Translations under genes and position numbers: made by a program | Shown here: in pieces, positions 3,042-18,436 of the stretch | How the letters are laid out: each line of letters begins with the position of its first letter | Position numbering within the stretch: the stretch's first letter is position 1 | Assembly: GCA_017438305.1 (NCBI GenBank) | Contig: JAFRVX010000044.1 | Location: 1-35,756, forward strand | Length of the DNA stretch: 35,756 nt | Source of the DNA: Lachnospiraceae bacterium | Lineage (GTDB): Bacteria > Bacillota > Clostridia > Lachnospirales > Lachnospiraceae | Direction: 5' to 3' | The notes under the pieces: model-generated | The model's input: only the letters and a program-made list of their open reading frames with translations | The model's database searches: none | What the model was told of the DNA's origin: nothing

Positions 3042-4829
3042 ATGAAAATAGATAAAACCTTATTGATGCAGACAGAAGAAGGAACTGCCTGGCATGAGTT
3101 CAAGGCTTCCCTGGGGCCGATCTACCCGGGCTATGAAAGTTTTGACGTGTTCCTGAACTGGGTGAAGGAAAAGCTGGAGGGATACGGCTGCACGGACACC
3201 CGGGAGCATCACTGGACCCATGAGACTTACCGGGTCGATGACTGGCCGGATCATGAATCCGGTGCTCTGGGGCTTACCATCGGCGGGAAGGAGATTCCCG
3301 TGGGGACCTTCCTCATGCTGTCCCGGTCCACCGGGGAAGAAGGCCTTACGGCTCCCCTGGTCTATTATGATCCGTCCGAAGGGGCTCCTGAAGACGATGC
3401 TTTCTCAGAAAAGATCGTTGTGATGGAGGAGCCGCCCATGCCGGAAAAGCCCTTCACGGAACGATTTCTGGAAAGCTTCGTGGCAACGGATACGAACTAC
3501 CGCTCCGGCCCGGCGCTCCCGGCAGAGATGTTTGAGATCGCGGATCCGGAAGTCAATAATTCCTGGAACACCCGCTGGTCCTTCGCCTCCTGGGGCAGCC
3601 TTGCCGAGGCTGCTTCAAAAGGAAATGCCGCAGGCCTGCTGATCGTGAGCCGGCTGACCTACGGCTGCCTTAAAGGCCTGTACGACCGTCAGATGAAGCG
3701 GCCCATGCCGTCTCTTGTCATCGACCGGATGAACGGCCGGGAAGTCCTGGAAGCGGCCCGGGAAGGAAAGACGGCCTGCATGAAGCTGATCAGCCGCTTT
3801 TATCCGGCAGATGCCTGGAATTTCGTGACCTTCCTTCCGGGAAAGGATTACGGAACGGACCGGGATCAATATGTCACCATCAATGTCCATGTGGACGCCA
3901 TGAGCCTTACCCAGGACAACGGCGCTTTAGGCGCTGTGGGGATCGCCCGGTATTTTTCGCACATCCCGCAGGCGCTTCGCGCCAAGACCCTGCTGTTCTG
4001 CATTGATTCCCGGCATTTCATCGAAGGCTTTGAATTCGGCAACTTTGAACACGATCCCTATCAGGTCTGGCCGGACCTTGTGCCGAAGGTAACGGTCACC
4101 GTCGGCCTGGAGCATATGGGGGAGATGGAAGGCGCCGAAGATTATGAGCATAACACCATGGTGCCCACCGGCCGTCCTGAATTTTCCTTCATGAAGGCCG
4201 ATGACAACGACTTCTGCGCGCGGATCCTGATCGAAGCAGCCATTGATTCGGGGCTGCAGCGGGCCGACATCAAGATCGACGGCCGCCCGGGGATCCACGG
4301 GGCTTATAAGGGACTGGTCCGGGCTGTCCAGGCCTCCTGCCACCGGCTGGACGTCTGCGTGATCGGTGAAGCCGGCAACTGGTGCGGCGCCCACACCCAG
4401 ACCTTTTCCGGGATGCAGTATTTCGGCCCCGACAAATTCAGGGATGAAGTCCATACCTGGACCCAGGTGGTTCAGGATCTGATGGATGCCGATGCCGTCG
4501 TTTATGACGTCAGCTGGTCGCAGCTGAACGCCTCTGTCCGGGAACTGAACCGGAAGGGCAGTCTTACTGCCCCAGCCCTGGAAGGGCTTCTGGAACTGAT
4601 CTCTGGCATCTTCCGGGAGGTGGAAGAAGGGGCTTATCGGAAAGCCCTGGAAAGACTGGAAAAAGAAGTCCGGCCTGTCCTGCTTCCGTTCTTTGAGGAG
4701 GCTTCGGAGGAGGAGGATAAGGAAGCGCCCCTCAGGGCTATGTTCGGAAAAAAACAGCTGCCGGTATCTGAAGCGCTGGATAAGGTCGTCCGGTGTCTCG
4801 GGACCCGGATCGAAACAGGAGGAAACTGA
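3042..4829 (+). CDS. Divergent M28-like zinc peptidase with PA-like insert
   Basis: A 595-residue protein without signal peptide. The ATG at 3042 is preferred because GGAG sits 6 bases upstream; the ATG at 3030 has no such site. Residues about 110-250 resemble a protease-associated (PA) domain. The C-terminal half has the M28 pattern: H283-V-D285 then D292-N-G, followed by LLFCID strand residues at about 317-322, and a late His451 in GAHTQTF. In classical M28 enzymes the strand after the D-N-x-x-G motif ends in a Glu-Glu pair giving the catalytic base and a metal ligand. Here it reads D322-S-R-H325, so these residues are missing or moved. The protein may be inactive, bind ligand only, or use another base. 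It ends 2 bases before the MATE gene, so the two are probably co-translated. Confidence 0.7.
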   Translation: MKIDKTLLMQTEEGTAWHEFKASLGPIYPGYESFDVFLNWVKEKLEGYGCTDTREHHWTHETYRVDDWPDHESGALGLTIGGKEIPVGTFLMLSRSTGEEGLTAPLVYYDPSEGAPEDDAFSEKIVVMEEPPMPEKPFTERFLESFVATDTNYRSGPALPAEMFEIADPEVNNSWNTRWSFASWGSLAEAASKGNAAGLLIVSRLTYGCLKGLYDRQMKRPMPSLVIDRMNGREVLEAAREGKTACMKLISRFYPADAWNFVTFLPGKDYGTDRDQYVTINVHVDAMSLTQDNGALGAVGIARYFSHIPQALRAKTLLFCIDSRHFIEGFEFGNFEHDPYQVWPDLVPKVTVTVGLEHMGEMEGAEDYEHNTMVPTGRPEFSFMKADDNDFCARILIEAAIDSGLQRADIKIDGRPGIHGAYKGLVRAVQASCHRLDVCVIGEAGNWCGAHTQTFSGMQYFGPDKFRDEVHTWTQVVQDLMDADAVVYDVSWSQLNASVRELNRKGSLTAPALEGLLELISGIFREVEEGAYRKALERLEKEVRPVLLPFFEEASEEEDKEAPLRAMFGKKQLPVSEALDKVVRCLGTRIETGGN

Positions 4830-4831
4830 GT

Positions 4832-6193
4832 ATGGAATTGACACAGGCCGATAAAAAGGCCTTTGATAAAGAACTGCTGGCCCTGGCTGTGCCGCTGGCG
4901 CTGCAGGAACTGCTGACCGCCCTGGTCGGCGCGTCGGACGCTCTGATGCTGGGAAGACTGACCCAGCAGTCCATAGCCGCCGTATCCCTGGCCAACCAGA
5001 TCTCCTTCGTCATGTCGCTCTTCACGGGATCCGCCGTGGGGGCTGCCGGCGTTCTGGCTGCCCAGTACTGGGGCAAAAAGGATTATAAAAACGCGAAGCG
5101 ATTTGCCGGCATGGCTGTCCGGTATTCCGCCGGGATCGCCCTGGTCTTTTTCCTGCTGGCCTTTTTCATCCCGAAAACCCTGATGTCCTTCTTTACGCCG
5201 GAAGCCGAACTTATTGAGATCGGCGCCCAGTATCTGCGGGTGGTGAGCTTTTCCTACCTGTTCATGGGCCTGTCCCGCAGCTATCTGATGATGATGCGGA
5301 TCTCGGGCTTTGTCTCCATGACCGTAAAGATCTCCGCCGTCACCGTCATCGTGGACATGATCGCGGACTTCTTCCTGATCTACGGCATCGGTCCCGTCCC
5401 GGCCCTCGGAGCGGTGGGCACCGCTTATTCCACCATTGTTGTGGAGATCCTGGCCCTGGTCTGGTGCATCCTCTGGACACGGAAAAGAGAGAACCTGCAC
5501 CTGGACAAAGACAGCCTCACCTATTTCTCGAAGGCTTATGAAAAGGATATCTGGAAGATCATTCCCGGCATGCTGGCCAGCGCCCTGGCCTGGGGGTTAA
5601 GCATCACCGCCCATTCCTTTATCATCGGTCACATGGGTACCGATGCCACCGCAGCCTATTCGGTGACCGCCGTTGCCCAGGGACTGATCCAATGCGTGAG
5701 CCAGGCCTTAGGCGCAGCTTCCGGCATCATGATCGGCCACCTTTTAGGAGCCAATGAACTGGAAAAGGCAAAGGCTTACGAGAAACGGTTCTGGAAGGTC
5801 TGTTTCCTGAACGGGGCGGTCAACCTCGTGCTGACGGCCATTATCGGTGTGCTGGTCTACGTCTTCTATAACCTGGAGCCCCAGGCAAAATCCTATCTGG
5901 TAAAGATGCTTCTCTTCATGGCGTTGTACATGGTCGCCTACTGCTTCAATACCATCTACACGGTGGGCATTTTCCCCGCCGGCGGAGACAGCCGCTACGA
6001 TGCCATCAGCGTCATTCTGGCCACCTGGTGCTTCGCCATCCCGCTGGCCCTCCTCGGCTGCTTTGTCTTCCACTGGCCGGTCATGGTGGTCTTTGTGGTC
6101 ATGTGCCTGGATGAGATCGTCAAGGTCCCCTTTATTCCCCTCAGGAATAAAAAGTATATCTGGCTGAAGAACCTGACCAGGGATGAGAACTGA
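4832..6193 (+). CDS. MATE family efflux transporter
   Basis: A 453-residue integral membrane protein with about 12 hydrophobic segments and the MATE/MatE pattern in two homologous halves (for example SDALMLGRLTQQSIAAVSLA near the N-terminus). Members export cationic or amphipathic compounds using a sodium or proton gradient; the substrate here is unknown. The ATG at 4832 has a strong AGGAGG site about 7 bases upstream. The gene follows the M28-like gene with only two intervening bases. It is the first of three MATE genes within 11 kb; the others are at 8748 and 13700. All three are clearly divergent in sequence, so they are not recent duplicates. Confidence 0.9.
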   Translation: MELTQADKKAFDKELLALAVPLALQELLTALVGASDALMLGRLTQQSIAAVSLANQISFVMSLFTGSAVGAAGVLAAQYWGKKDYKNAKRFAGMAVRYSAGIALVFFLLAFFIPKTLMSFFTPEAELIEIGAQYLRVVSFSYLFMGLSRSYLMMMRISGFVSMTVKISAVTVIVDMIADFFLIYGIGPVPALGAVGTAYSTIVVEILALVWCILWTRKRENLHLDKDSLTYFSKAYEKDIWKIIPGMLASALAWGLSITAHSFIIGHMGTDATAAYSVTAVAQGLIQCVSQALGAASGIMIGHLLGANELEKAKAYEKRFWKVCFLNGAVNLVLTAIIGVLVYVFYNLEPQAKSYLVKMLLFMALYMVAYCFNTIYTVGIFPAGGDSRYDAISVILATWCFAIPLALLGCFVFHWPVMVVFVVMCLDEIVKVPFIPLRNKKYIWLKNLTRDEN

Positions 6194-6457: not shown

Positions 6458-7813
6458 TCACGCCTGCCTGTGCCACTCGAAACAGAGCATCGTGATATCG
6501 TCGAACTGCTCGTTGTCCCGGACAAAACCGTTCAGTGAGCTCTTTACCTTTTCGATGGTCTTTCCGGGGCTTTCCTCCGCGCAGTCCTTAAGGCATTCCA
6601 GGAGCCGGTCGTTTCCAAAGCTTTCGTTATCCTTCGTCACCGCCTCCGTGACCCCGTCGGTATACAGGAAGATCTTGTCTCCATCCTTAAGCCGCAGGCC
6701 TGTTTCCGAGTAAGCCATATTCTCCATGCCGCCCAGGACGAAGCCGCTTTTCGCTTTCATGAATTCCGGAACGCCGTCTCTGACCAGCACCGGGGGATTA
6801 TGTCCCGCGCTCACATAGATGAGTTCCCCGTTCCGGATATTCAGGACCCCTGCCCAGACCGTAACAAACATCTCCGCATCGTTCCCTCTGCACAAAACGT
6901 CGTTGGCCAGGGCGACCCCTTCCGCAAGATCCGGCGTTATCCGGACGCAGTTCTGAAGAATGACCTTGGAACAGGCCATGAACAGGGCTGCCGGGACGCC
7001 TTTGCCGGAAACGTCGCCGATCAGAAAGACGATCTGATCGTCGTCAATAAAGAATACGTCGTAAAAATCGCCGCCGACGGTCTTGGCCGCCTCCATCGAA
7101 GCGCTGACCTTCAGCTCCGGCCGGCCGGGATATCTGTCTGACAAAGCAGGCAGCAGGGAATTCTGGATAACATTCGCCACCTCCAGTTCCGACTTCATGC
7201 GTTCCCGCTCCAGAGTCAGCTGCCGCTGGTTGTCAAAGAAGTGCATGATGACCGTCATCAGGGCGATGCCGGCCGCATTGACGGTCACGAAGGGGATCGC
7301 AATCTGCCGGACGATGCCCCAGGCTGTCGAAAAGGGGGTTACCATCAGAAGCACGATGCCCAGGTGCAGCGATTCCATCACAGCGCCGATCAGCAGCACC
7401 CATCCGGACCTTTTCAGGATGTCCGGAACAGACACGGAGATGATGCCGCAGATGAGGCCGATGATGCAGGTCGCCACCACGCAGGCCTGGGCTGTGATGC
7501 CGCCCATCGAAAGCCGCTGAAAGCCGGCTATCGCGCCGGCAAGAAGGCCGCTTACGGGACCGCCCATCAGGCCGGACATCATCGGCCCTATATCCCGCAC
7601 CGAGATGACCGCGCTGTTTAAGTCAAAGCCGGAAATATTTCCGTAGATACCGAACAGGCCGCCCGCCAGACCGACAATGAGAACGAATTTCCAGGTCTTC
7701 CGGGCTTCGATCAGCTTCTTCAGCAGCTGGGTGCTGCCGATGAAGGCCGAGATCAGCAGGATCACGGCCAGGGTACCTATCAGTCTTGAAAAGAAGACGT
7801 ACATATTTTCCAT
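6458..7813 (-). CDS. Membrane SpoIIE-type PP2C phosphatase with LytS-like 5TM sensor
   Basis: A 451-residue protein. Residues about 8-192 hold several membrane helices matching the 5TMR-LYT sensor domain found in LytS-type proteins (motifs NISGFDLNSAVISVRD and GPVSGLLAGAIAGF). A short helix at about 195-215 leads to a SpoIIE/RsbU PP2C domain with metal-site residues D249 (VGGDFYD) and D267 (GDVSGKGVPAAL), and FDDITML near the end. Such proteins dephosphorylate Ser-phosphorylated STAS anti-anti-sigma factors. No HATPase domain is attached. The start at 7813 has an AAAGGT site on the minus strand. The upstream amidohydrolase frame would have ended 14 bases before this start, which suggests an operon with it and the MATE gene beyond. 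A natural STAS substrate in this window is the protein at 13399. Confidence 0.9.
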   Translation of the reverse strand: MENMYVFFSRLIGTLAVILLISAFIGSTQLLKKLIEARKTWKFVLIVGLAGGLFGIYGNISGFDLNSAVISVRDIGPMMSGLMGGPVSGLLAGAIAGFQRLSMGGITAQACVVATCIIGLICGIISVSVPDILKRSGWVLLIGAVMESLHLGIVLLMVTPFSTAWGIVRQIAIPFVTVNAAGIALMTVIMHFFDNQRQLTLERERMKSELEVANVIQNSLLPALSDRYPGRPELKVSASMEAAKTVGGDFYDVFFIDDDQIVFLIGDVSGKGVPAALFMACSKVILQNCVRITPDLAEGVALANDVLCRGNDAEMFVTVWAGVLNIRNGELIYVSAGHNPPVLVRDGVPEFMKAKSGFVLGGMENMAYSETGLRLKDGDKIFLYTDGVTEAVTKDNESFGNDRLLECLKDCAEESPGKTIEKVKSSLNGFVRDNEQFDDITMLCFEWHRQA

Positions 7814-7827
7814 AAACTTCTGTACCT

Positions 7828-7935
7828 TTACACGCTGTCCGAAAAACCTCCGGGCACGTGTTCATATAACCGCAGGGTGTTTACTCCGAGTATCAGTTCT
7901 TTCTCTTCATCCGTCAGATCAAGATTCCGGATTCT
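7828..7935 (-). pseudogene. Orphaned C-terminal coding remnant beyond an in-frame TAG
   Basis: After the TAG at 7936-7938 the same frame stays open for 35 more codons to a TAA at 7828-7830. It reads like the normal end of an amidohydrolase (LDLTDEEKELILGVNTLRLY follows RIRN). There is no ribosome site or start, so it would be translated only by read-through of the amber codon. Confidence 0.7.
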
Positions 7936-8685
7936 CTAAATATCTCTGACAGGATTGCCGAAGGGATAATCCGATCCGAAGGCGATCCTGCGGCAGCCGA
8001 TTTTTCTGAAAGCACGAACAGTATTTTCGTCTGATTCCCAGAAATCATCATGGATCCTGTGGATACATCTTTCACCAGTCACCGTAATGGACGTATCAAA
8101 GATGATATTCGGGCACGTTTCCGCTGCCCTGTATACAGTCTCCGGATCTCCGGCCATGAGATGCGTCATGACGAAGGGAATGCCGGGATACTGTTCCGCC
8201 GCTTTCATAAGGCACGGGATATCCGTATATTCATTCAGATGGACGCGGGATGTTTCACCGCAATGAAATGTGATTGGTATGCCGTATCTTTCGCAGAAGG
8301 CATACACAGGTCTTAATCCGGGATCGTCGGGAGCAAAATTCTGAATGCCGTTATGCATTTTTATTCCTTTTGCCCCCCGCCGGAACCAGCCGGCGAGCTT
8401 TTTTATCTCTATTCCAGGGTATACACTGACCAGCGGGATAAACCGCCGGAAGTTTTCCGCAGCAGCCAGCGTCCACTCATTGATCCTGTCGACGCTTTTC
8501 ACCGGTCCGAAGTTCGCCAGGACGGTATAATCCGTATTGCCGGCCTCCATCTTTTCAATCAGGTCCGGAACCGTTCCCTTTCCAAGAGAAGGCGTCGGTT
8601 CCATGTGATGCAGATCAGTAAAGGAGGAAATGATCCTTTCCGCATTCTTTTCAGCATAAACATGGGCGTGTCCGTCAATAATCAT
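7936..8685 (-). CDS. Amidohydrolase-2 family TIM-barrel hydrolase, truncated by amber codon
   Basis: The 249-residue product belongs to the amidohydrolase-related (PF04909-type) metal-dependent hydrolases. It has the N-terminal DGHAH metal motif (H6, H8), barrel histidines in TFHCGET and FVMTHLMAGD, and the final metal Asp in FGSDYPFG. All metal ligands therefore precede the break. The frame stops at TAG (codon 250), but 35 further codons in the same frame encode a typical family C-terminus. The ATG at 8685 is chosen; a GTG directly before it is the alternative, and the ribosome site is weak either way. It lies between a MATE gene and a SpoIIE phosphatase on the minus strand. The loss may inactivate or only shorten the enzyme, or may be a sequencing error. 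The substrate is unknown. Confidence 0.75.
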   Translation of the reverse strand: MIIDGHAHVYAEKNAERIISSFTDLHHMEPTPSLGKGTVPDLIEKMEAGNTDYTVLANFGPVKSVDRINEWTLAAAENFRRFIPLVSVYPGIEIKKLAGWFRRGAKGIKMHNGIQNFAPDDPGLRPVYAFCERYGIPITFHCGETSRVHLNEYTDIPCLMKAAEQYPGIPFVMTHLMAGDPETVYRAAETCPNIIFDTSITVTGERCIHRIHDDFWESDENTVRAFRKIGCRRIAFGSDYPFGNPVRDI

Positions 8686-8747
8686 CACTTGCTGCCGCTT
8701 TCTTCCGTTTCTTGATTCCTTCTGTTTTCCGCTTCTGTTCCCTGCTT

Positions 8748-10319
8748 TCAGGCTTCTGTTCCATCCGCCTCTTCTGCTTTTGCCGCTTCTTCAGCTTCTG
8801 CCGCTTCCAGCCTTCTCACGACACTCTTGTTCTGCCACTTGCCGAACTTGAAGTATATGAAGATCATCAGGGCGCCGCAGAACATCGAAATGCCCATGAC
8901 GTAGAACATGTACATGAAATGATTCGGCGCTGCGAGAACCGCCGCTGCCGACTGCTCGGCTTCCTCCAGGGTCTTGTAGGCGCCGGTGGCAAAGAGTTCC
9001 GATGCCTTTGCCGCAAGTTCCGGGCTCTTTGCGGCAAGGACCTGGGCAATCTCCGTCCTTAAGGGTCTGGCCGCCAGCAAGTAGGCCAGAGGGATACGGA
9101 TCAGGTTCGCCATAATGGAGGTGATGGCCGGAGCGATGGCCGCGCCTGCACCTCTCATGGCGCCGCCGGTGACGTGGTCCATGCCCATAAAGGCATAGCA
9201 GAAGGCCAGAAAATGGATGCCGGAAACACCCATCATCAGCACCTGTCCGTCCGCGCCGAAGGCCTTCATGATATATGGTCCCGAAAAGTACAGGACTACG
9301 CCCACGAATGCCGCCACAGCGATGGCCGTCAGCTGGCCGGCGTGCACGCCTTTCTTGGCCCGGTCGATCTTGCCGGCGCCGATGTTCTGGCCCACAAAGG
9401 ACGTGGAAGCCATGCCCAGGCCCATCATCGGCATCATGGCAAAGCCGTCTGTCTTCATAATGATCGTATTGGCCGCGATGAAGTTTGAGCCGAATGAATT
9501 CGCGAAGCTCTGGATCACAACGCTGCCCAGGGACATGGCCGCGTTCTGGATCGAACTTGGCAGGCCCAGTTTGAAGATCTGGGCCGCGGCGCTTTTGTCC
9601 GGATGCATGATATCCTTGATGTGGAGCCGGACCGGATAGGCACCGCTCTGGATTCTCCAGAGGGGGATCATGCCGCTTAAGAAGTGGGCGATGGTCGTCG
9701 CCCAGGCAACCCCGGCGACACCCATATCAAATTTGATGACAAAGAGAAGGTCCAGGACGATGTTCGTCACCGAACTCACCAGCATCGCCACCAGGGGCCA
9801 GCGGCTGTCGCCCATGCCGCGGAGCGCTCCGGAACCCAGGTTGAAGAAAACGTTGCCCAGGGTACCTGCGAAGATGATCATCAGATAGGACGTCGAGTTT
9901 TCGATGATATTGGCCGGCGTTTTGATGAGCTGCAAAAGGGGCTTTGCCAGCGGCGTGCCGACGATCGTGATGGCCGCGCCGATCATGATCGCCAGAGCGA
10001 TGGCCGTATTGGTCACGATCCGGAGCCTGTCCTCATCCTTCGCGCCGAAGGTCTGGCTGATCACGATCTGGGCGCCCATGGACGCCCCCATAAACAGCGC
10101 GTTGAACAGCATCATGATCGGAAACACCGCGCCGACGGCCGCCAGGGCATCCGTTCCGACGTAATTGCCTACCACGATGGAGTCCACCACGTTGTAAAGC
10201 TGCATACACAGATTTCCCAGGATCACCGGGATCGCGAATCCGATCAGCTTGGCAAAGATCGGGCCCTGCGTCAGGTCATTCCGGGAATTGGGTTTCATTT
10301 CCTTAATTTTATCCGCCAT
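8748..10319 (-). CDS. MATE family efflux transporter with extended loop
   Basis: A 523-residue MATE protein of the NorM/DinF-like type: LTQGPIFAKLIGFAIPVILG at the N-terminus, QLYNVVDSIVVG in helix 1-2, and GALRGMGDSRWPL. The ATG at 10319 is preferred because AAGGG lies about 10 bases upstream; an in-frame TTG at 10340 would add seven residues. Two features are unusual: an Ala-rich insertion of about 45 residues between the last two predicted helices (LAAKSPELAAKASELFATG region), and an acidic Ala/Glu-rich tail. It has a good promoter at 10398-10426. The amidohydrolase and SpoIIE genes follow on the same strand. Confidence 0.9.
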   Translation of the reverse strand: MADKIKEMKPNSRNDLTQGPIFAKLIGFAIPVILGNLCMQLYNVVDSIVVGNYVGTDALAAVGAVFPIMMLFNALFMGASMGAQIVISQTFGAKDEDRLRIVTNTAIALAIMIGAAITIVGTPLAKPLLQLIKTPANIIENSTSYLMIIFAGTLGNVFFNLGSGALRGMGDSRWPLVAMLVSSVTNIVLDLLFVIKFDMGVAGVAWATTIAHFLSGMIPLWRIQSGAYPVRLHIKDIMHPDKSAAAQIFKLGLPSSIQNAAMSLGSVVIQSFANSFGSNFIAANTIIMKTDGFAMMPMMGLGMASTSFVGQNIGAGKIDRAKKGVHAGQLTAIAVAAFVGVVLYFSGPYIMKAFGADGQVLMMGVSGIHFLAFCYAFMGMDHVTGGAMRGAGAAIAPAITSIMANLIRIPLAYLLAARPLRTEIAQVLAAKSPELAAKASELFATGAYKTLEEAEQSAAAVLAAPNHFMYMFYVMGISMFCGALMIFIYFKFGKWQNKSVVRRLEAAEAEEAAKAEEADGTEA

Positions 10320-10397
10320 AACAGTCTTTCCCTTCTTCAATTCTATTTTACGTACGGACAGAACAGACCGTCTCCGCCCGCTTTATATCTGATATCT

Positions 10398-13087: not shown

Positions 13088-13115
13088 TTGAATTTCGACA
13101 TTTTTGTATTATAAT
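13088..13115 (+). promoter_or_regulatory. Promoter of the XRE-STAS-MATE-formyltransferase-SpoIIE operon
   Basis: TTGAAT (13088-13093), a 16-base spacer and TATAAT (13110-13115). Transcription would start near 13122, shortly before the AGGAGG of the XRE gene. No other strong promoter is seen before the later genes. Confidence 0.65.
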
Positions 13116-13148: not shown

Positions 13149-13358
13149 ATGGCTGTAAGCTATAAAAAACTCTGGAAACTGCTGATCGATAAGGACATGA
13201 AAAAAAGCGACCTTGAACGCAGGTCGGGGATCACCCATTATGCCTTAGGCCAGCTTTCCCAGGGCAAAGACGTCTCTACCGAAGTGCTCGGCAAGATCTG
13301 TGAAACGCTGGGCTGCTCGATAGACGATATCATGGAATTCATTCCGGATGATGAATGA
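13149..13358 (+). CDS. XRE/YozG-like helix-turn-helix regulator
   Basis: A 69-residue protein that is almost entirely one Cro/C1-type helix-turn-helix domain: KLWKLLIDKDMKKSDLERRS, then ITHYALGQLSQGKDVSTEVL and KICETLGCSIDDIMEF, as in the short YozG/HTH_26 regulators. The ATG at 13149 has AGGAGG about 7 bases upstream; an earlier in-frame start has none. It is the first gene of a five-gene run, with 40 bases to the STAS gene. It probably binds its own promoter region, where the repeated 30-bp element is a candidate target; this is inference. Confidence 0.85.
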   Translation: MAVSYKKLWKLLIDKDMKKSDLERRSGITHYALGQLSQGKDVSTEVLGKICETLGCSIDDIMEFIPDDE

Positions 13359-13398
13359 ATAAAGAATTGAGATAAATAAGCGAAAGGAGTAAAGGACT

Positions 13399-13695
13399 AT
13401 GAACATCATTAAAAATATTGAAGGCAATAAACTGGAAATGGCTGTCGAAGGAAGGCTCGACACCAACTCTTCTCCTGTCTTTATGGACGCCTTTACCGAG
13501 GTTTCAGAAGGCGTTGAAGATTTCGTGCTGGATCTCGGCAAGGTGGACTACATCTCCTCCGCAGGGCTGCGGGTGCTGCTTTCCATGCAGAAGATCATGA
13601 ACAAGCAGGGCAAGATGACGATCGTTAACGCCACCTCCGATCTGATGGAGGTCTTCGATCTTACGGGTTTCTCTGACATTCTGAATATCGGATAA
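13399..13695 (+). CDS. STAS-domain anti-sigma factor antagonist (SpoIIAA/RsbV type)
   Basis: A 98-residue protein that is a single STAS domain. EGRLDTNSSPVF is the first conserved block, and the phospho-acceptor loop is D50-Y-I-S53-S54-A-G-L, with the conserved serine pair that partner kinases phosphorylate. The start has AAAGGAG about 12 bases upstream. It ends 4 bases before the MATE-HATPase gene. In RsbV/SpoIIAA systems the dephosphorylated protein binds an RsbW/SpoIIAB-type HATPase, and a SpoIIE-type phosphatase reactivates it. Both domain types are encoded directly downstream, but no sigma factor is. Confidence 0.93.
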   Translation: MNIIKNIEGNKLEMAVEGRLDTNSSPVFMDAFTEVSEGVEDFVLDLGKVDYISSAGLRVLLSMQKIMNKQGKMTIVNATSDLMEVFDLTGFSDILNIG

Positions 13696-13699
13696 TATT

Positions 13700-15451
13700 A
13701 TGGCAGCTAAAGACCGTTTTACCGGTCCCATGTTCCGCCGCCTCTTTATTCCGGCAGTGCTCTCCTCCTTCGGATGGGCCTTCAGCGATATTGCAGACGC
13801 GGTGGTCGTAGGCCAGAAGCTCGGCACCGTCGGGCTTGCGGCCATCAGCCTGATCCTGCCGGTCTACATGCTCAACTGCATGTTCGCCCACGGGCTCGGC
13901 ATCAGCGGATCGGTAAAATATTCCCTTTTTCTCAGCAGCGGAGATACCGGAAAAGCACAGGAAAGCTTTGCCGCTGCCTTCGGCCTGACCCTGATGCTGA
14001 GCATCGGCACGGCGGTACTGGGCACGATCTTTATCGATCCGCTCCTCAGGCTTCTCGGAACGACGCCGGAGGACGGAGAACTGTATAACGCGACGATCTC
14101 GTACCTGCGCATCCAGCTGCTTGCTACGCCGCTGTTTTATATTTCCAACGTTTTCAATTATTTTCTGCGGAATGACGGCAGCGAAAAACTTGCCGGCACC
14201 GGCTCGGTGGTCGGCAATCTGTGCGATATCTTTCTGAACTTCCTGCTCGTGATCGTCTTCAATATGGGGACGGGGGGCGCGGCTCTGTCCACGGCCATCG
14301 GCCAGGTGATCACGATCTCGATCTACCTGCCCGGCTTCTTCTCGAAAACGCATTTTCTTAAATTTATGCTTCCCGTGAAGGGATGGCTGAAAGATTCGGT
14401 GAAGATGCTCGTGAAGGGTCTGGCTACGTCGGTCAATTACCTGTATCAGACTATCTTCTTCCTCCTGTGCAATAATTTCCTGAAACGCCTGGGAGGAGAA
14501 ACGGGCATCGCCGTTTTTGACATCATTCAGAATACGTCCTATCTCATCCTCTATCTCTATGACGGCACGGCGCGCGCCATGCAGCCGATCCTGTCCACCT
14601 ATCACGGAGAGAGGAATGAGCCGGGCAAAAAGAATCTGCTCAGGATCGGCTTTACCGCGGGGATCATCCTGGGCTGCCTGATGATCATCCCCGCCGCAGT
14701 CTATCCGAAGTGGCTGTGCATGCTCTTCGGCATTGCGGGAAGTGCGGCGGAGCCGCTGGCCCATACCGCGATCAGGATATTCGTACTGGGCTCGTTCTTT
14801 GCCGGCATCAGCATGCTGCTGTCAAATTACTATCAGTCGGTAAACCGGGAAAAACCTGCGTTTCTGATCATGACGCTCCGCGGCGCGGCGGTACTGCTTC
14901 CGGCAATGTTCTTATGCCTTAAGTTCGGACTGTCCGGGTTCTGGTGGCTGTTCCCCATCACGGAGATATCGTCTCTTCTGATCGTTTCCGTGATCTTCAC
15001 GATCCTGAAAAAGCGCGGAAAATCTGACGATGAAAAAGCCGACGGCGAGCGCATCTTCCGGCGCACCATCCTGAGCAGCCAGAAGGACATCGGCTCCGCC
15101 AGCGAGGATCTCGACGAATTCTGCAGCCGCTGGAACGCGGCGCCGAAAAAGAAGTATTCCGTTATGATGGCGGTGGAAGAGCTGGGCCTCGCGATCCTTC
15201 AGCACGGCTTTGAAGGACGGGAAAACGGCTATATCCAGATTACCGTCATTTCCCTCGAAGACGGCGACTTTGAGCTTCATCTGCGGGACGATGCCAGGAG
15301 CTTCGATCCCTTCAGCCTGAAGACGCAGCGCGCGAGTTCCGCAGGCGACGTGGATATGGACACCATCGGCGTTCTGATGATCAAGGAACGCTCTAAAGAA
15401 TTCAATTACCGGCGCTATCAGGGTTTCAACACACTGGTTGTAAAGATTTAA
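13700..15451 (+). CDS. MATE transporter fused to degenerate HATPase-like domain
   Basis: A 583-residue protein. Residues 1 to about 440 form a complete 12-helix MATE transporter (FTGPMFRRLFIPAVLSSFGW; DIADAVVVGQKLGTVGLAAI). A linker at about 441-455 joins a soluble domain (about 455-583) with the layout of RsbW/SpoIIAB anti-sigma HATPases. The ATP-binding motifs are eroded: the N-box Asn aligns with Ala498 in VEELGLAILQHGF; G1, normally DxG, reads D530-D-A532 before SFDP; G2 keeps only Gly557 of GGLG. Kinase activity is therefore doubtful, while a binding role is possible. The frame is continuous and codon use does not change at the joint. It starts 4 bases after the STAS gene. A STAS-binding cytoplasmic domain that gates export is the simplest hypothesis. 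Confidence 0.88.
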   Translation: MAAKDRFTGPMFRRLFIPAVLSSFGWAFSDIADAVVVGQKLGTVGLAAISLILPVYMLNCMFAHGLGISGSVKYSLFLSSGDTGKAQESFAAAFGLTLMLSIGTAVLGTIFIDPLLRLLGTTPEDGELYNATISYLRIQLLATPLFYISNVFNYFLRNDGSEKLAGTGSVVGNLCDIFLNFLLVIVFNMGTGGAALSTAIGQVITISIYLPGFFSKTHFLKFMLPVKGWLKDSVKMLVKGLATSVNYLYQTIFFLLCNNFLKRLGGETGIAVFDIIQNTSYLILYLYDGTARAMQPILSTYHGERNEPGKKNLLRIGFTAGIILGCLMIIPAAVYPKWLCMLFGIAGSAAEPLAHTAIRIFVLGSFFAGISMLLSNYYQSVNREKPAFLIMTLRGAAVLLPAMFLCLKFGLSGFWWLFPITEISSLLIVSVIFTILKKRGKSDDEKADGERIFRRTILSSQKDIGSASEDLDEFCSRWNAAPKKKYSVMMAVEELGLAILQHGFEGRENGYIQITVISLEDGDFELHLRDDARSFDPFSLKTQRASSAGDVDMDTIGVLMIKERSKEFNYRRYQGFNTLVVKI

Positions 15452-15470
15452 TGAGAGGAGGCCAGTGGTA

Positions 15471-16289
15471 ATGGACATTATCTATTTCGGAACAGACGTT
15501 TTTTATTCCTGTTTCGACTATCTGTCAAAGCATCACAGGATCCGTGCGCTGTATACCTATCATAACGATGAGGACTATTTTACCGAATACGAGATCGTCA
15601 GGCGCGCGAAGGAACTGGGAATTCCCGTTCACTATGAGGCGGTCACGCCGGAACAGACAAAAGCGTATTTCAAAGACGGCGTTTCCGTCTATTTCAGCGC
15701 GGAGTACGACAGGATCATCGACATACCGGAGGACCTGCCGGAATTCAGGGGCATCAATATCCACAGCTCCGCCCTTCCCGAAGGCAGAGGCTATTATCCC
15801 ATCGAATCGGCAATGGAACGGGAGCTGCCGCGGACCGGCGTTACTGCACATAAACTGGTGCAGCGTTTCGACAGCGGCGATATCCTCGCCCAGAGAAGAT
15901 TTGACATTACGCCGGATATGGACAGCGTCGACGTGTATCTTACCAGCGCCGCGAACGCCCTCGATATGACAAAAGAGATCTTCTCTGATTTCGAGTCGGC
16001 CTGGAATATGGCCTCGGTCCAGAGCGGCAGAGGATCTTACTGGAAGCGCACCGCCAGAGAGAAGCTCACGCTGACCCACGAAATGGACGTCCGGGAAGCC
16101 CTGGAGATATTCCGCCGGTATAACGGGATGACGGAAGCCTTCATTAACGGCAGCGAATATTTTGTGACGTCGGCAGTCCGGGGACAGGCGCTTCTTCCCC
16201 GGGAAGAGATCCGGATATCCGACGATCTGTATCTCTACGCTGTCCGGGACGGACACGTGCGGCTTACCGTAAAACCGATCAATTCTTAA
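15471..16289 (+). CDS. Formyltransferase (Fmt/ArnA N-terminal type), substrate unknown
   Basis: A 273-residue cytoplasmic protein of the 10-formyltetrahydrofolate-dependent formyltransferase family. The catalytic triad appears intact: N96 and H98 in NIHSSALPEGRGYYPI, and D134 in QRFDSGDIL. The H-to-D spacing of 36 equals that of E. coli Fmt (H108/D144). The C-terminal 70 residues form a small beta-rich domain. The ATG at 15471 has GAGGAGG 9 bases upstream; a GTG at 15465 is too close to it. It is shorter than the usual 310-residue Fmt and lacks normal Fmt neighbours (def, priA, rsmB), so it is probably not the housekeeping enzyme. It may formylate an amino sugar or other amine that is exported or sensed by its neighbours; this is inference. 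Confidence 0.85.
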   Translation: MDIIYFGTDVFYSCFDYLSKHHRIRALYTYHNDEDYFTEYEIVRRAKELGIPVHYEAVTPEQTKAYFKDGVSVYFSAEYDRIIDIPEDLPEFRGINIHSSALPEGRGYYPIESAMERELPRTGVTAHKLVQRFDSGDILAQRRFDITPDMDSVDVYLTSAANALDMTKEIFSDFESAWNMASVQSGRGSYWKRTAREKLTLTHEMDVREALEIFRRYNGMTEAFINGSEYFVTSAVRGQALLPREEIRISDDLYLYAVRDGHVRLTVKPINS

Positions 16290-16301
16290 ACGGTGACAGA
16301 T

Positions 16302-18311
16302 ATGAAGAAAAGACACTTGCAGAGCAAACTGATTATCGGGCTGGTCATGATAGGCATCGTTCTCATGCTTGCGATGTCACTGGCTGTCACGAATATGTTC
16401 CGTGTGCAGATGGAACAGCAGTATTCAAGGACGGCTTTCGATAACGCGACCATTGCCGCTGCCATCATCAACGGCGACACCATAAAAAGATATCGTGAAA
16501 CGCTTCAGAAGGATGAATATTACGAAGAGATCCGGGAGAAGCTTGAGTCCATCCGCAGTACCGTGGGACTCAAATATCTGTACGTCGTCATTCCCGAAGA
16601 CGTACAGTTCTACATCTGGGACACCGGCGAGGAGGGCGATGAAGGCGTCTGCGACCTGGGCGATACCGATGAGTTCTACGGCGACGGCTATGAAGTCATG
16701 CATTCCGCTTTTTCACCGGACGCCGAGGAAACGATCCTGATCACCGACAACGCTGTTTACGGCTACCTGGCTTCCGCCTACGTACCGATCCTGGACAGCG
16801 ACGGCGTTCCGGCCGCCCTCGCCAGCGTGGACATCTCCCTGGACGAGATCAACAAGCAGATCGACAGATTTGTCCTGGTGGCTGTCCTCGTTACTTTTGC
16901 CGTCCTGCTGCTTTCGTCCGTGGGCTATTACTTCTATATACGGAATATCCTGATCAACCCCATCCGAACGCTCCATGACGATACCAAAAAGCTCGTATCG
17001 GACAACATGGATACCCTGGATAAATTTGAAAACCACGTGCATACGGGGGACGAGCTGGAAGAGCTTGGCACATCCTTCGAATTCATGACGCGGGAGCTGA
17101 ACGATTATATCCGGAACCTTGCCTCCGTCACCGCTGAAAAAGAAAGGATCGGGGCGGAGCTGAACGTAGCGACCCAGATCCAGGCCGATATGCTTCCGCG
17201 TATCTTCCCGGCGTTCCCGGAACGCTCGGAATTCGACGTCTACGCGACAATGACACCCGCAAAGGAAGTAGGCGGCGACTTCTACGACTTCTTCCTGGTG
17301 GACGACGATCACATCGCCCTTGTCATGGCTGATGTTTCCGGCAAAGGCGTCCCCGCCGCCCTGTTCATGGTCATTGCGAAGACCCTGATCAAAAACCACG
17401 CCCTGGCAGGGGAAAGCCCCTCCCAGATCCTCAGCAACGTCAACGACCAGCTCTGCGAAGGCAACGAAGCGGAACTGTTCGTGACCGTGTGGCTGGCGAT
17501 CGTCCAGCTGTCCACCGGCAAGGGGATCGCAGCAAACGCGGGACATGAGCACCCGGCCCTCCGGCGCGCCGACGGCAGCTACGAGCTTGTGGTCTACCGT
17601 CACTCTCCCGCCGTGGCAGCCATGGAAGGCATGCGCTTTAAGGAGCATGAATTCGAGCTTCATCCCGGCGACGGCCTGTTTGTCTATACCGACGGCGTGA
17701 CCGAAGCGACAAACAGCGAACTTAAGCTTTTCGGCACCGACAATATGCTCACGGCCCTTAACCGGGAACCCATGGCAGCACCGAACGTACTTCTGAAAAA
17801 CGTCCGGGAAGGCATAGATACCTTTGTGGGCGACATGGATCAGTTCGACGACATCACAATGCTGGGCTTCAGTTACTTCGGACCGAAAAGAAAAGCCCCG
17901 GAGGAACTGACCCTGGACGCGGCGGACGAGAATCTTGACAAGGTACTGGGTTTTATCAACGAACGCCTGGATAAGCTCGGCTGCGATCCGAAGATCCGGA
18001 AGCATCTGGACGTATCGGTGGAAGAACTGTTCGTGAACATCTCCCATTACGCCTATAAGCCTGATACCGGGAAAGCAACGATCCGTTTTGAATATAATGC
18101 GGATTCAGACACCGCTTTCATCACGCTTATCGACAGCGGCATTCCCTATGATCCGCTGAAGAAACCGGATCCGGATCTGACGCTTTCCGTGGAGGAGCGT
18201 CCCATCGGCGGACTCGGCATCTTCATGACAAAGCACTATGTCGATAACATCCGCTACGAACGGGATGGCGGCAAAAATATCCTGACCTTGGAGAAGAAGC
18301 TCAAAAGCTGA
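16302..18311 (+). CDS. Membrane sensor with HAMP, SpoIIE phosphatase and HATPase domains
   Basis: A 669-residue protein. A transmembrane helix at about 10-31 and another at about 190-215 bracket an extracellular sensor of about 155 residues, possibly Cache-like (YEEIREKLESIRSTVGLKYL; AYVPILDSDGVPAALASVDI). A HAMP linker (216-268) and a coiled helix lead to a SpoIIE PP2C domain with D326 (EVGGDFYD), D344 (ADVSGKGVPAAL) and D516/D517 (FDDITML). The C-terminal HATPase (about 540-669) is intact: N579 in the N-box, D611-S-G613 in G1, and GGLGIF in G2. One protein could thus both phosphorylate and dephosphorylate a STAS partner. The ATG at 16302 lies 12 bases after the formyltransferase; the ribosome site is weak, so translational coupling is likely. 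A terminator follows at 18404. Confidence 0.92.
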   Translation: MKKRHLQSKLIIGLVMIGIVLMLAMSLAVTNMFRVQMEQQYSRTAFDNATIAAAIINGDTIKRYRETLQKDEYYEEIREKLESIRSTVGLKYLYVVIPEDVQFYIWDTGEEGDEGVCDLGDTDEFYGDGYEVMHSAFSPDAEETILITDNAVYGYLASAYVPILDSDGVPAALASVDISLDEINKQIDRFVLVAVLVTFAVLLLSSVGYYFYIRNILINPIRTLHDDTKKLVSDNMDTLDKFENHVHTGDELEELGTSFEFMTRELNDYIRNLASVTAEKERIGAELNVATQIQADMLPRIFPAFPERSEFDVYATMTPAKEVGGDFYDFFLVDDDHIALVMADVSGKGVPAALFMVIAKTLIKNHALAGESPSQILSNVNDQLCEGNEAELFVTVWLAIVQLSTGKGIAANAGHEHPALRRADGSYELVVYRHSPAVAAMEGMRFKEHEFELHPGDGLFVYTDGVTEATNSELKLFGTDNMLTALNREPMAAPNVLLKNVREGIDTFVGDMDQFDDITMLGFSYFGPKRKAPEELTLDAADENLDKVLGFINERLDKLGCDPKIRKHLDVSVEELFVNISHYAYKPDTGKATIRFEYNADSDTAFITLIDSGIPYDPLKKPDPDLTLSVEERPIGGLGIFMTKHYVDNIRYERDGGKNILTLEKKLKS

Positions 18312-18403: not shown

Positions 18404-18436
18404 AGTTCCCGCCTGAAATGGGCGGGAGCTTTTTTT
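18404..18436 (+). terminator. Terminator of the partner-switching operon
   Basis: AGTTCCCGCC (18404-18413) pairs with GGCGGGAGCT (18421-18430) with one G-T pair across a 7-base loop, followed by seven T. It lies 92 bases after the sensor gene and marks the end of the operon. Confidence 0.9.

Follow-up and report, generated by a model that had tools for sequence, protein, structure and literature searches.

Partner switches such as SpoIIE/SpoIIAA/SpoIIAB-sigmaF and RsbU/RsbV/RsbW-sigmaB are textbook controllers of transcription. Outputs other than a sigma factor also occur and, in the consulted parts of the relevant papers, are given as the diguanylate cyclases SiaD and HsbD or, in the case of SypA, a target that is unknown (PMC7647112, PMC8457831, PMC8256260, PMC10120452). 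In the SiaABCD system of Pseudomonas aeruginosa, these parts describe the STAS-like protein SiaC as an activator of SiaD (PMC8457831, PMC7647112), HsbA-HsbD is also named among the non-sigma outputs (PMC7647112), and in the SypE/SypA system of Vibrio fischeri the STAS protein is placed downstream, under kinase/phosphatase control (PMC8256260, PMC10120452). A literature search limited to Creative Commons-licensed papers in PubMed Central found no description of a MATE exporter in a partner switch. Here, we analyzed a stretch of 35,756 nucleotides from a Lachnospiraceae bacterium (GenBank assembly GCA_017438305.1, contig JAFRVX010000044.1, positions 1 to 35,756 of the forward strand; hereafter the window), in which an operon encodes a STAS protein, a MATE exporter fused to a HATPase domain, a formyltransferase and a membrane-bound SpoIIE phosphatase with a second HATPase domain. 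We propose, with a probability of roughly 0.55, that the operon is a partner switch without a sigma factor that has the exporter as its output, with export gated by phosphorylation of Ser54 of the STAS protein through the exporter-attached HATPase, a probable pseudokinase.

The five genes, which include one for an XRE-type regulator, lie where the original prediction had placed them, and their order and domains were confirmed with the list of open reading frames (ORFs) and with Pfam, all five proteins scoring above the curated cut-offs against which matches were judged. The intergenic gaps of 40, 4, 19 and 12 bases are correct with ATG starts at 15471 and 16302; alternative GTG starts are found at 15465 (formyltransferase gene) and 16293 (sensor-phosphatase gene). 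The exporter gene (13700-15451) codes for one protein of 583 aa with MatE (PF01554, 6.9e-35, 120.6 bits against a cut-off of 24.9) and HATPase_c_2 (3.9e-10) matches, and its score with TIGR00797 (141 bits) is slightly below the cut-off of that model (147.4). BH2163 is the closest solved relative of the MATE domain (3.3e-32), and Asp33, at least 90% conserved, aligns with the Asp in transmembrane helix 1 of BH2163, which presumably has a role in MATE coupling. The gene at 16293/16302-18311 likewise codes for a single protein, with SpoIIE (2.1e-44) and HATPase_c_2 (5.2e-21) matches. We designate its HATPase domain HATs and that of the exporter HATm.

Residues expected of a working switch are conserved in the other components. 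The STAS protein matches TIGR00377 above its cut-off, and Ser54, which we take to be the phospho-acceptor position of SpoIIAA/RsbV, is present in all 44 stand-alone STAS proteins of the 79 loci described below (the preceding Ser in 43 of 44). Five Asp positions of the SpoIIE domain, presumably metal-binding, are kept in 72/72 sequences, and the sixth in 71 with one gap. The N-box Asn of HATs was found in 51 of the 51 sequences with a residue at this position (52 aligned, sensor-fused or stand-alone). Judging from motifs and predicted structures, an intact phosphatase, an intact HATPase kinase, a STAS protein with an acceptor Ser and an exporter HATPase devoid of the Asn are all encoded.

The C-terminal domain of the exporter had been described as RsbW/SpoIIAB-like. 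The fold stood in a comparison of predicted structures, in which Foldseek's first 1000 chains were re-ranked: HATm appears to retain the SpoIIAB/RsbW fold, that is, the fold of a STAS-binding domain. Its ATP motifs are degenerate. According to the consulted part of PMC10345196, the N-box Asn of SpoIIAB, Asn50, chelates Mg. Residues were counted in 112 HATm sequences, 84 of them linked to partner-switch genes and 28 unlinked (two HATPase ORFs devoid of a MATE part, at L072 and L181, are outside this set). Of the 84 linked exporters, 80 carry A, V, S, L, T, F or D in place of Asn at the Mg-ligand position. The Gly of the DxG motif is kept in 9/112 HATm but 52/52 HATs, and the first two Gly of the G2 box are each kept in 3/112 HATm and, again for each, 52/52 HATs. 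HATs retains the Mg-binding Asn, which has been lost across the operon-linked clade; for this reason, the MATE-attached domain is probably not a working kinase and looks like a receiver for the STAS protein.

The 28 unlinked fusions (e.g., L058, L060-L070) have a different pattern, with the N-box Asn kept in 23/28 and DxC in place of DxG in 23/28, and they are perhaps active kinases. MATE-HATPase proteins of 884-889 aa were seen at L063, L107, L111 and L118, the first of which has a C-terminal HD-CE domain.

To examine neighborhoods, one genome per species (84,980 species) was scanned with an alignment of five exporters as query. This gave 85 relatives, the best 80 of which correspond to 79 distinct loci. 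Two MATE genes lacking the HATPase (L198, L199) and duplicate records (L054-L057, L103) were dropped, the window and two loci from an order-level sample (L101, L102) were added to give 80 loci, and 79 were counted because L191 is cut off before the HATPase. Neighbors were genes on the same strand within 6 kb of the exporter, and 47 loci with at least 5 kb upstream and at least 4.5 kb downstream formed a full-context subset. In this subset, SpoIIE was found at all 47 loci, the formyltransferase at 37, an LPG_synthase_C domain at 28 (one or both of these two at 44), an intact HATPase at 33, STAS at 24 and a sigma-like gene at 1; the respective numbers among all 79 loci were 75, 59, 44, 47, 39 and 1. 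A region homologous to the membrane sensor adjoins SpoIIE in 47/47. As a control, 20 ordinary MATE loci were taken from three operon-bearing genomes (6 from G273, 6 from G012 and 8 from Hungatella hathewayi, G046) with flanks of about 5 kb (contig ends clip two of the loci); none of the 20 had a STAS, SpoIIE, kinase HATPase, formyltransferase, LPG_synthase_C or sigma neighbor. Thus, SpoIIE at 47/47 fusion loci versus 0/20 ordinary MATE loci is more than chance, and the conservation of neighborhood on which the original prediction depended was observed.

Two layouts were recognized. One, as in the window, is STAS, MATE-HATPase, formyltransferase and sensor-phosphatase(-HATPase); the other is (STAS), formyltransferase, LPG_synthase_C, MATE-HATPase and sensor-phosphatase(-HATPase). 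Some loci have the kinase HATPase fused C-terminally to the phosphatase, and others have it as a small gene of its own. Directly upstream of the exporter (gap of -60 to 100, n=79) we found LPG_synthase_C 31 times, a single formyltransferase-LPG_synthase_C frame 4 times and STAS 13 times. Members of the operon occur in Lachnospiraceae, Oscillospiraceae, Selenomonadaceae and Synergistaceae, mostly anaerobes, in a scattered manner. Close orthologs, with the own genome counted, were present in 5/150 genomes of a family sample (E <1e-30), 5/392 of an order sample (E <1e-40) and 1/15 of the genus. The operon is widespread but patchy. This patchiness extends to the genus, since the only close ortholog there was in the own genome and the same-genus genome G154 (L315), whose neighboring symporter is 92% identical, does not have the operon beside it. 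Contamination of the metagenome-assembled genome as a source of the operon is unlikely given this symporter and a GC content of 0.538 for the operon stretch, in line with 0.524-0.542 in seven other stretches of the own genome.

The expected absence of a sigma gene was borne out. In the own genome, which is 81% complete, 16 ORFs match Sigma70_r2 and none of them lies on the window contig, so that a sigma factor in cis was rejected for the window; with 10 of these 16 ORFs as queries, the sole sigma-like ORF among the full-context loci was at L141. The single-contig genome G273 (3.1 Mb) has three STAS matches: a SpoIIA-type protein with HATPase and sigma genes next to it, a sulfate permease and the protein of the operon. 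Its HATPase_c_2 matches above the cut-off are the SpoIIA-type protein, HATs and HATm, with four more below the cut-off, and its SpoIIE matches are one protein with SpoIIE_N and that of the operon. It follows from this census that, above the cut-off, the operon STAS has only HATs and HATm as non-sporulation partners. Similarly, H. hathewayi has four STAS proteins: one of SpoIIA type, one SulP and two at the operon locus. Co-occurrence, control and G273 together uphold the sigma-less linkage of a STAS-SpoIIE-HATPase set to an exporter. Two points of the original scheme need correction: the XRE gene looks peripheral, and the exporter HATPase is probably not a working kinase.

In the mechanism we favor, the sensor-controlled SpoIIE phosphatase would dephosphorylate the STAS protein and HATs would phosphorylate it at Ser54. 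Unphosphorylated STAS would dock on HATm, by analogy with SpoIIAA on SpoIIAB, and docking would alter the activity of the exporter, most likely by activation, as in the case of SiaC and SiaD. In this way, export would be gated by an external signal with no need for new transcription. With HATm as the STAS receiver and the exporter as the output, this is the most economical reading of the gene set; binding, the sign of control, nucleotide dependence and cargo are what we infer.

Several observations weigh against this proposal. No STAS is present within 6 kb in 23/47 full-context loci, and an intact HATPase is absent within that distance in 14/47. The N-box Asn is kept in 4 linked exporters. 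The HATm Glu aligned with SpoIIAB Glu46 is kept in 112/112 sequences and the G1 Asp in 107/112, so nucleotide binding or residual catalysis by HATm is possible. In addition, the Asn loss sits in one clade, so that it and the linkage to the operon do not count as independent events; a test of independent pairs had 3 usable pairs (median p 1) and no power. MATE-HATPase fusions with no partner-switch neighbor also occur, three of them in the own genome (C17, C18 and C160).

With regard to the missing STAS genes, a permissive profile search of 24 STAS-less loci recovered three strong matches just beyond the neighbor rule, one at L131 about 6.8 kb upstream on the same strand and two, at L175 and L181, on the other strand; at the rest of these loci this search gave only matches with E >1. 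A threshold effect was rejected as the cause of STAS-less loci, as only these three were recovered. At loci that have no STAS or HATs, these are encoded elsewhere: in G506, STAS and HATs genes lie side by side on another contig, and G349 and G146 have separate HATs with intact N-box away from the exporter. STAS can be encoded away from the operon. A further stretch of the own genome (L023 5091-10673, contig C63) has a SpoIIE-HATPase, a STAS protein and a STAS-APH-HATPase fusion, and no sigma gene was seen there by eye.

A serious rival, though one we consider rather unlikely, is that the exporter is a sensor: HATm would bind and release STAS according to substrate flux or load and so inform the switch, and the target of free STAS would lie elsewhere. 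A transporter-attached HATPase could work in either direction, the degenerate HATm is predicted to have kept a STAS-binding fold, and the STAS protein SypA has been proposed, in the consulted part of PMC10120452, to function downstream of its kinase. However, a membrane sensor region is already part of the phosphatase at every full-context locus, no recurrent additional STAS target was seen encoded alongside, and G273 has no other non-sporulation HATPase_c_2 above the cut-off.

The neighboring enzymes bear on what is exported. The best PDB match of the window formyltransferase is the ArnA formyltransferase (1e-10), and its Asn, His and Asp, presumably the catalytic triad, are kept in 57/57 sequences. 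The frequent formyltransferase, often accompanied by LPG_synthase_C, points to a biosynthetic product as the likely cargo, most probably a lipid or small metabolite that the formyltransferase and, where present, the LPG_synthase_C-type transferase produce or modify. In Selenomonas ruminantium (L182), a Veillonellaceae metagenome-assembled genome (L193) and G432 (L104), STAS is fused to a condensation domain of nonribosomal peptide synthetases (NRPS), and an NRPS gene and the exporter come next; the STAS loop reads YISSAGLR in L182 and L193 and YTSSMGIR in L104. Other loci have GH3 (L059), an NRPS-reductase and APH (L071) or a STAS-APH fusion with AMP-binding (L175). These fusions and neighbors tie STAS and the exporter to biosynthesis. 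It is possible, and we offer it tentatively, that such exporters captured a partner-switch kinase domain, which became a pseudokinase receptor for STAS, and that STAS phosphorylation sets the assembly of a synthesis-export complex, which in some lineages would include the biosynthetic enzyme itself (the STAS-NRPS condensation proteins). The cargo would then be formylated and/or aminoacylated, in the main form a lipid or small molecule from LPG_synthase_C and the formyltransferase, and the whole a split, signal-gated analog of MprF. As separate observations, short GGG-motif peptides resembling leader peptides were noticed by eye near the operon at L164 and L190, and L164 also has an apparent peptidase-type ABC transporter (label by eye).

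The same condensation and APH fusions, with their NRPS, GH3 or AMP-binding neighbors, could instead mean that STAS and HATPase pair in order to recruit biosynthetic enzymes to the exporter, in a synthesis-export complex whose assembly is set by phosphorylation. We regard this as improbable, as STAS is free-standing in the window and at most loci that possess one. It is also doubtful, to a high degree, that HATm is an active kinase despite the Asn loss, making the exporter a second kinase input to an output elsewhere: the Glu at the catalytic-base position and the G1 Asp would fit such activity, but the Asn replacement and the near-complete loss of the DxG and G2-box Gly residues, all intact in HATs, do not. 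Finally, control of a sigma factor in trans with the exporter as passenger or membrane anchor, for which the distant STAS and HATs genes of G506, G349 and G146 could be cited, is very improbable considering the single sigma-like gene in 47 loci, the separate SpoIIA-type sets beside sigma genes in G273 and H. hathewayi and the tight co-occurrence with the exporter.

The features are collected in Table 1.

Table 1. Features of the operon in window coordinates, followed by fusion genes at three related loci
Feature	Position	Strand	Basis
Promoter-like site TTGAAT-16-TATAAT	13088..13115	+	Consensus scan, not above shuffles
XRE-type regulator, HTH_26, 69 aa, probably peripheral	13149..13358	+	Pfam HTH_26 4.5e-20
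STAS protein, 98 aa; predicted phospho-Ser54 in YISSAGLR (13558-13560)	13399..13695	+	Pfam STAS 5.2e-15
MATE transporter domain, BH2163-like; conserved Asp33 at 13796-13798	13700..15055	+	Pfam MatE 6.9e-35
HATm, C-terminal HATPase of MATE protein, degenerate ATP motifs; Ala498 (15191-15193) replaces N-box Asn	15056..15451	+	
Formyltransferase-family enzyme (Formyl_trans_N), N-H-D triad intact	15471..16289 (GTG start 15465)	+	Pfam 5e-12
Membrane sensor region of phosphatase	16302..17282	+	Only sub-threshold sCache_3_2 and HAMP matches
SpoIIE (PP2C) phosphatase domain, conserved Asp intact	17301..17867	+	3.8e-45
HATs kinase domain, intact N-box EELFVN	17919..18296	+	4.1e-22
Terminator-like hairpin with T-run	18406..18436 (about)	+	Read by eye; scan scored only minus-strand form
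STAS-NRPS condensation fusions	L182 2715-4310; L193 2694-4292; L104 155-1774		

With regard to the shared promoter and terminator proposed earlier, the 3' hairpin with its T-run is present, and the promoter is plausible but not above shuffles in the scan (3 promoter-like sites versus a shuffle mean of 4.9). The XRE regulator, claimed as a member of the set, had no match at related loci outside the window with a one-sequence profile, which is a weak test; it was rejected as a core part and is probably peripheral to the conserved genes. For the sensor region, Pfam gave no ligand-domain identity, with Cache and HAMP below threshold only. Elsewhere in the window (6458-10340, minus strand) are a second SpoIIE phosphatase (5TMR-LYT and SpoIIE, no HATPase match), an amidohydrolase and an ordinary MATE gene, all on the same strand, adjoined by another MATE gene at 4793-6193 (plus strand), a MATE-SpoIIE adjacency that lacks STAS. 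In two other genomes (L028 5700-6125 and L280), a 141-aa anti-sigma-like HATPase gene lies near iron-sulfur and hydrogenase/Nuo-like genes (neighbors by eye).

An exporter may be gated directly by protein phosphorylation in these cells. If so, partner switching would extend to membrane transport, with the exporter as its direct output and the fused kinase domain devoid of the Mg ligand as the mark of such systems. It would also open a way to the product that these anaerobic bacteria, often from the gut, export. The proposal makes a precise prediction that can be tested with two small proteins, a single serine and a receiver domain.

The operon shares with the SpoIIA and Rsb switches a STAS protein with a Ser in the conserved loop, a SpoIIE-type PP2C phosphatase and a HATPase with an intact N-box. 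It differs from them in having no adjacent sigma factor, a second, degenerate HATPase fused to an exporter and transferase genes in the set. MprF is a lysyl-phosphatidylglycerol synthase plus flippase, and 28/47 relatives similarly have an LPG_synthase_C-type transferase near a membrane protein of a flippase superfamily; however, the genes are separate, MATE replaces the MprF membrane domain, and Pfam detected no LPG_synthase_C in the five proteins of the window operon. Like SiaABCD as described in the consulted parts of PMC7647112 and PMC8457831, the operon combines a sensor phosphatase, a kinase and a STAS-like protein with a non-sigma output. The window sensor-phosphatase matches the NCBIfam SiaA model (2.6e-20), with 72.5 of 700 bits and thus far below its cut-off. 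In contrast to SiaABCD, the proposed output is an exporter with a HATPase domain rather than a cyclase, no diguanylate cyclase domain being among the Pfam matches of the five operon proteins, and the STAS acceptor is Ser rather than Thr. Compared with SypE/SypA, the fused receiver-like domain points to the exporter as the target. A STAS domain is also linked to a transporter in SulP/SLC26 proteins, there in cis within the transporter itself (PMC8256260, in the part consulted), whereas in the window STAS is a separate protein (13399-13695 versus 13700-15451 for the MATE gene) and it is its HATPase partner that is fused to the MATE exporter.

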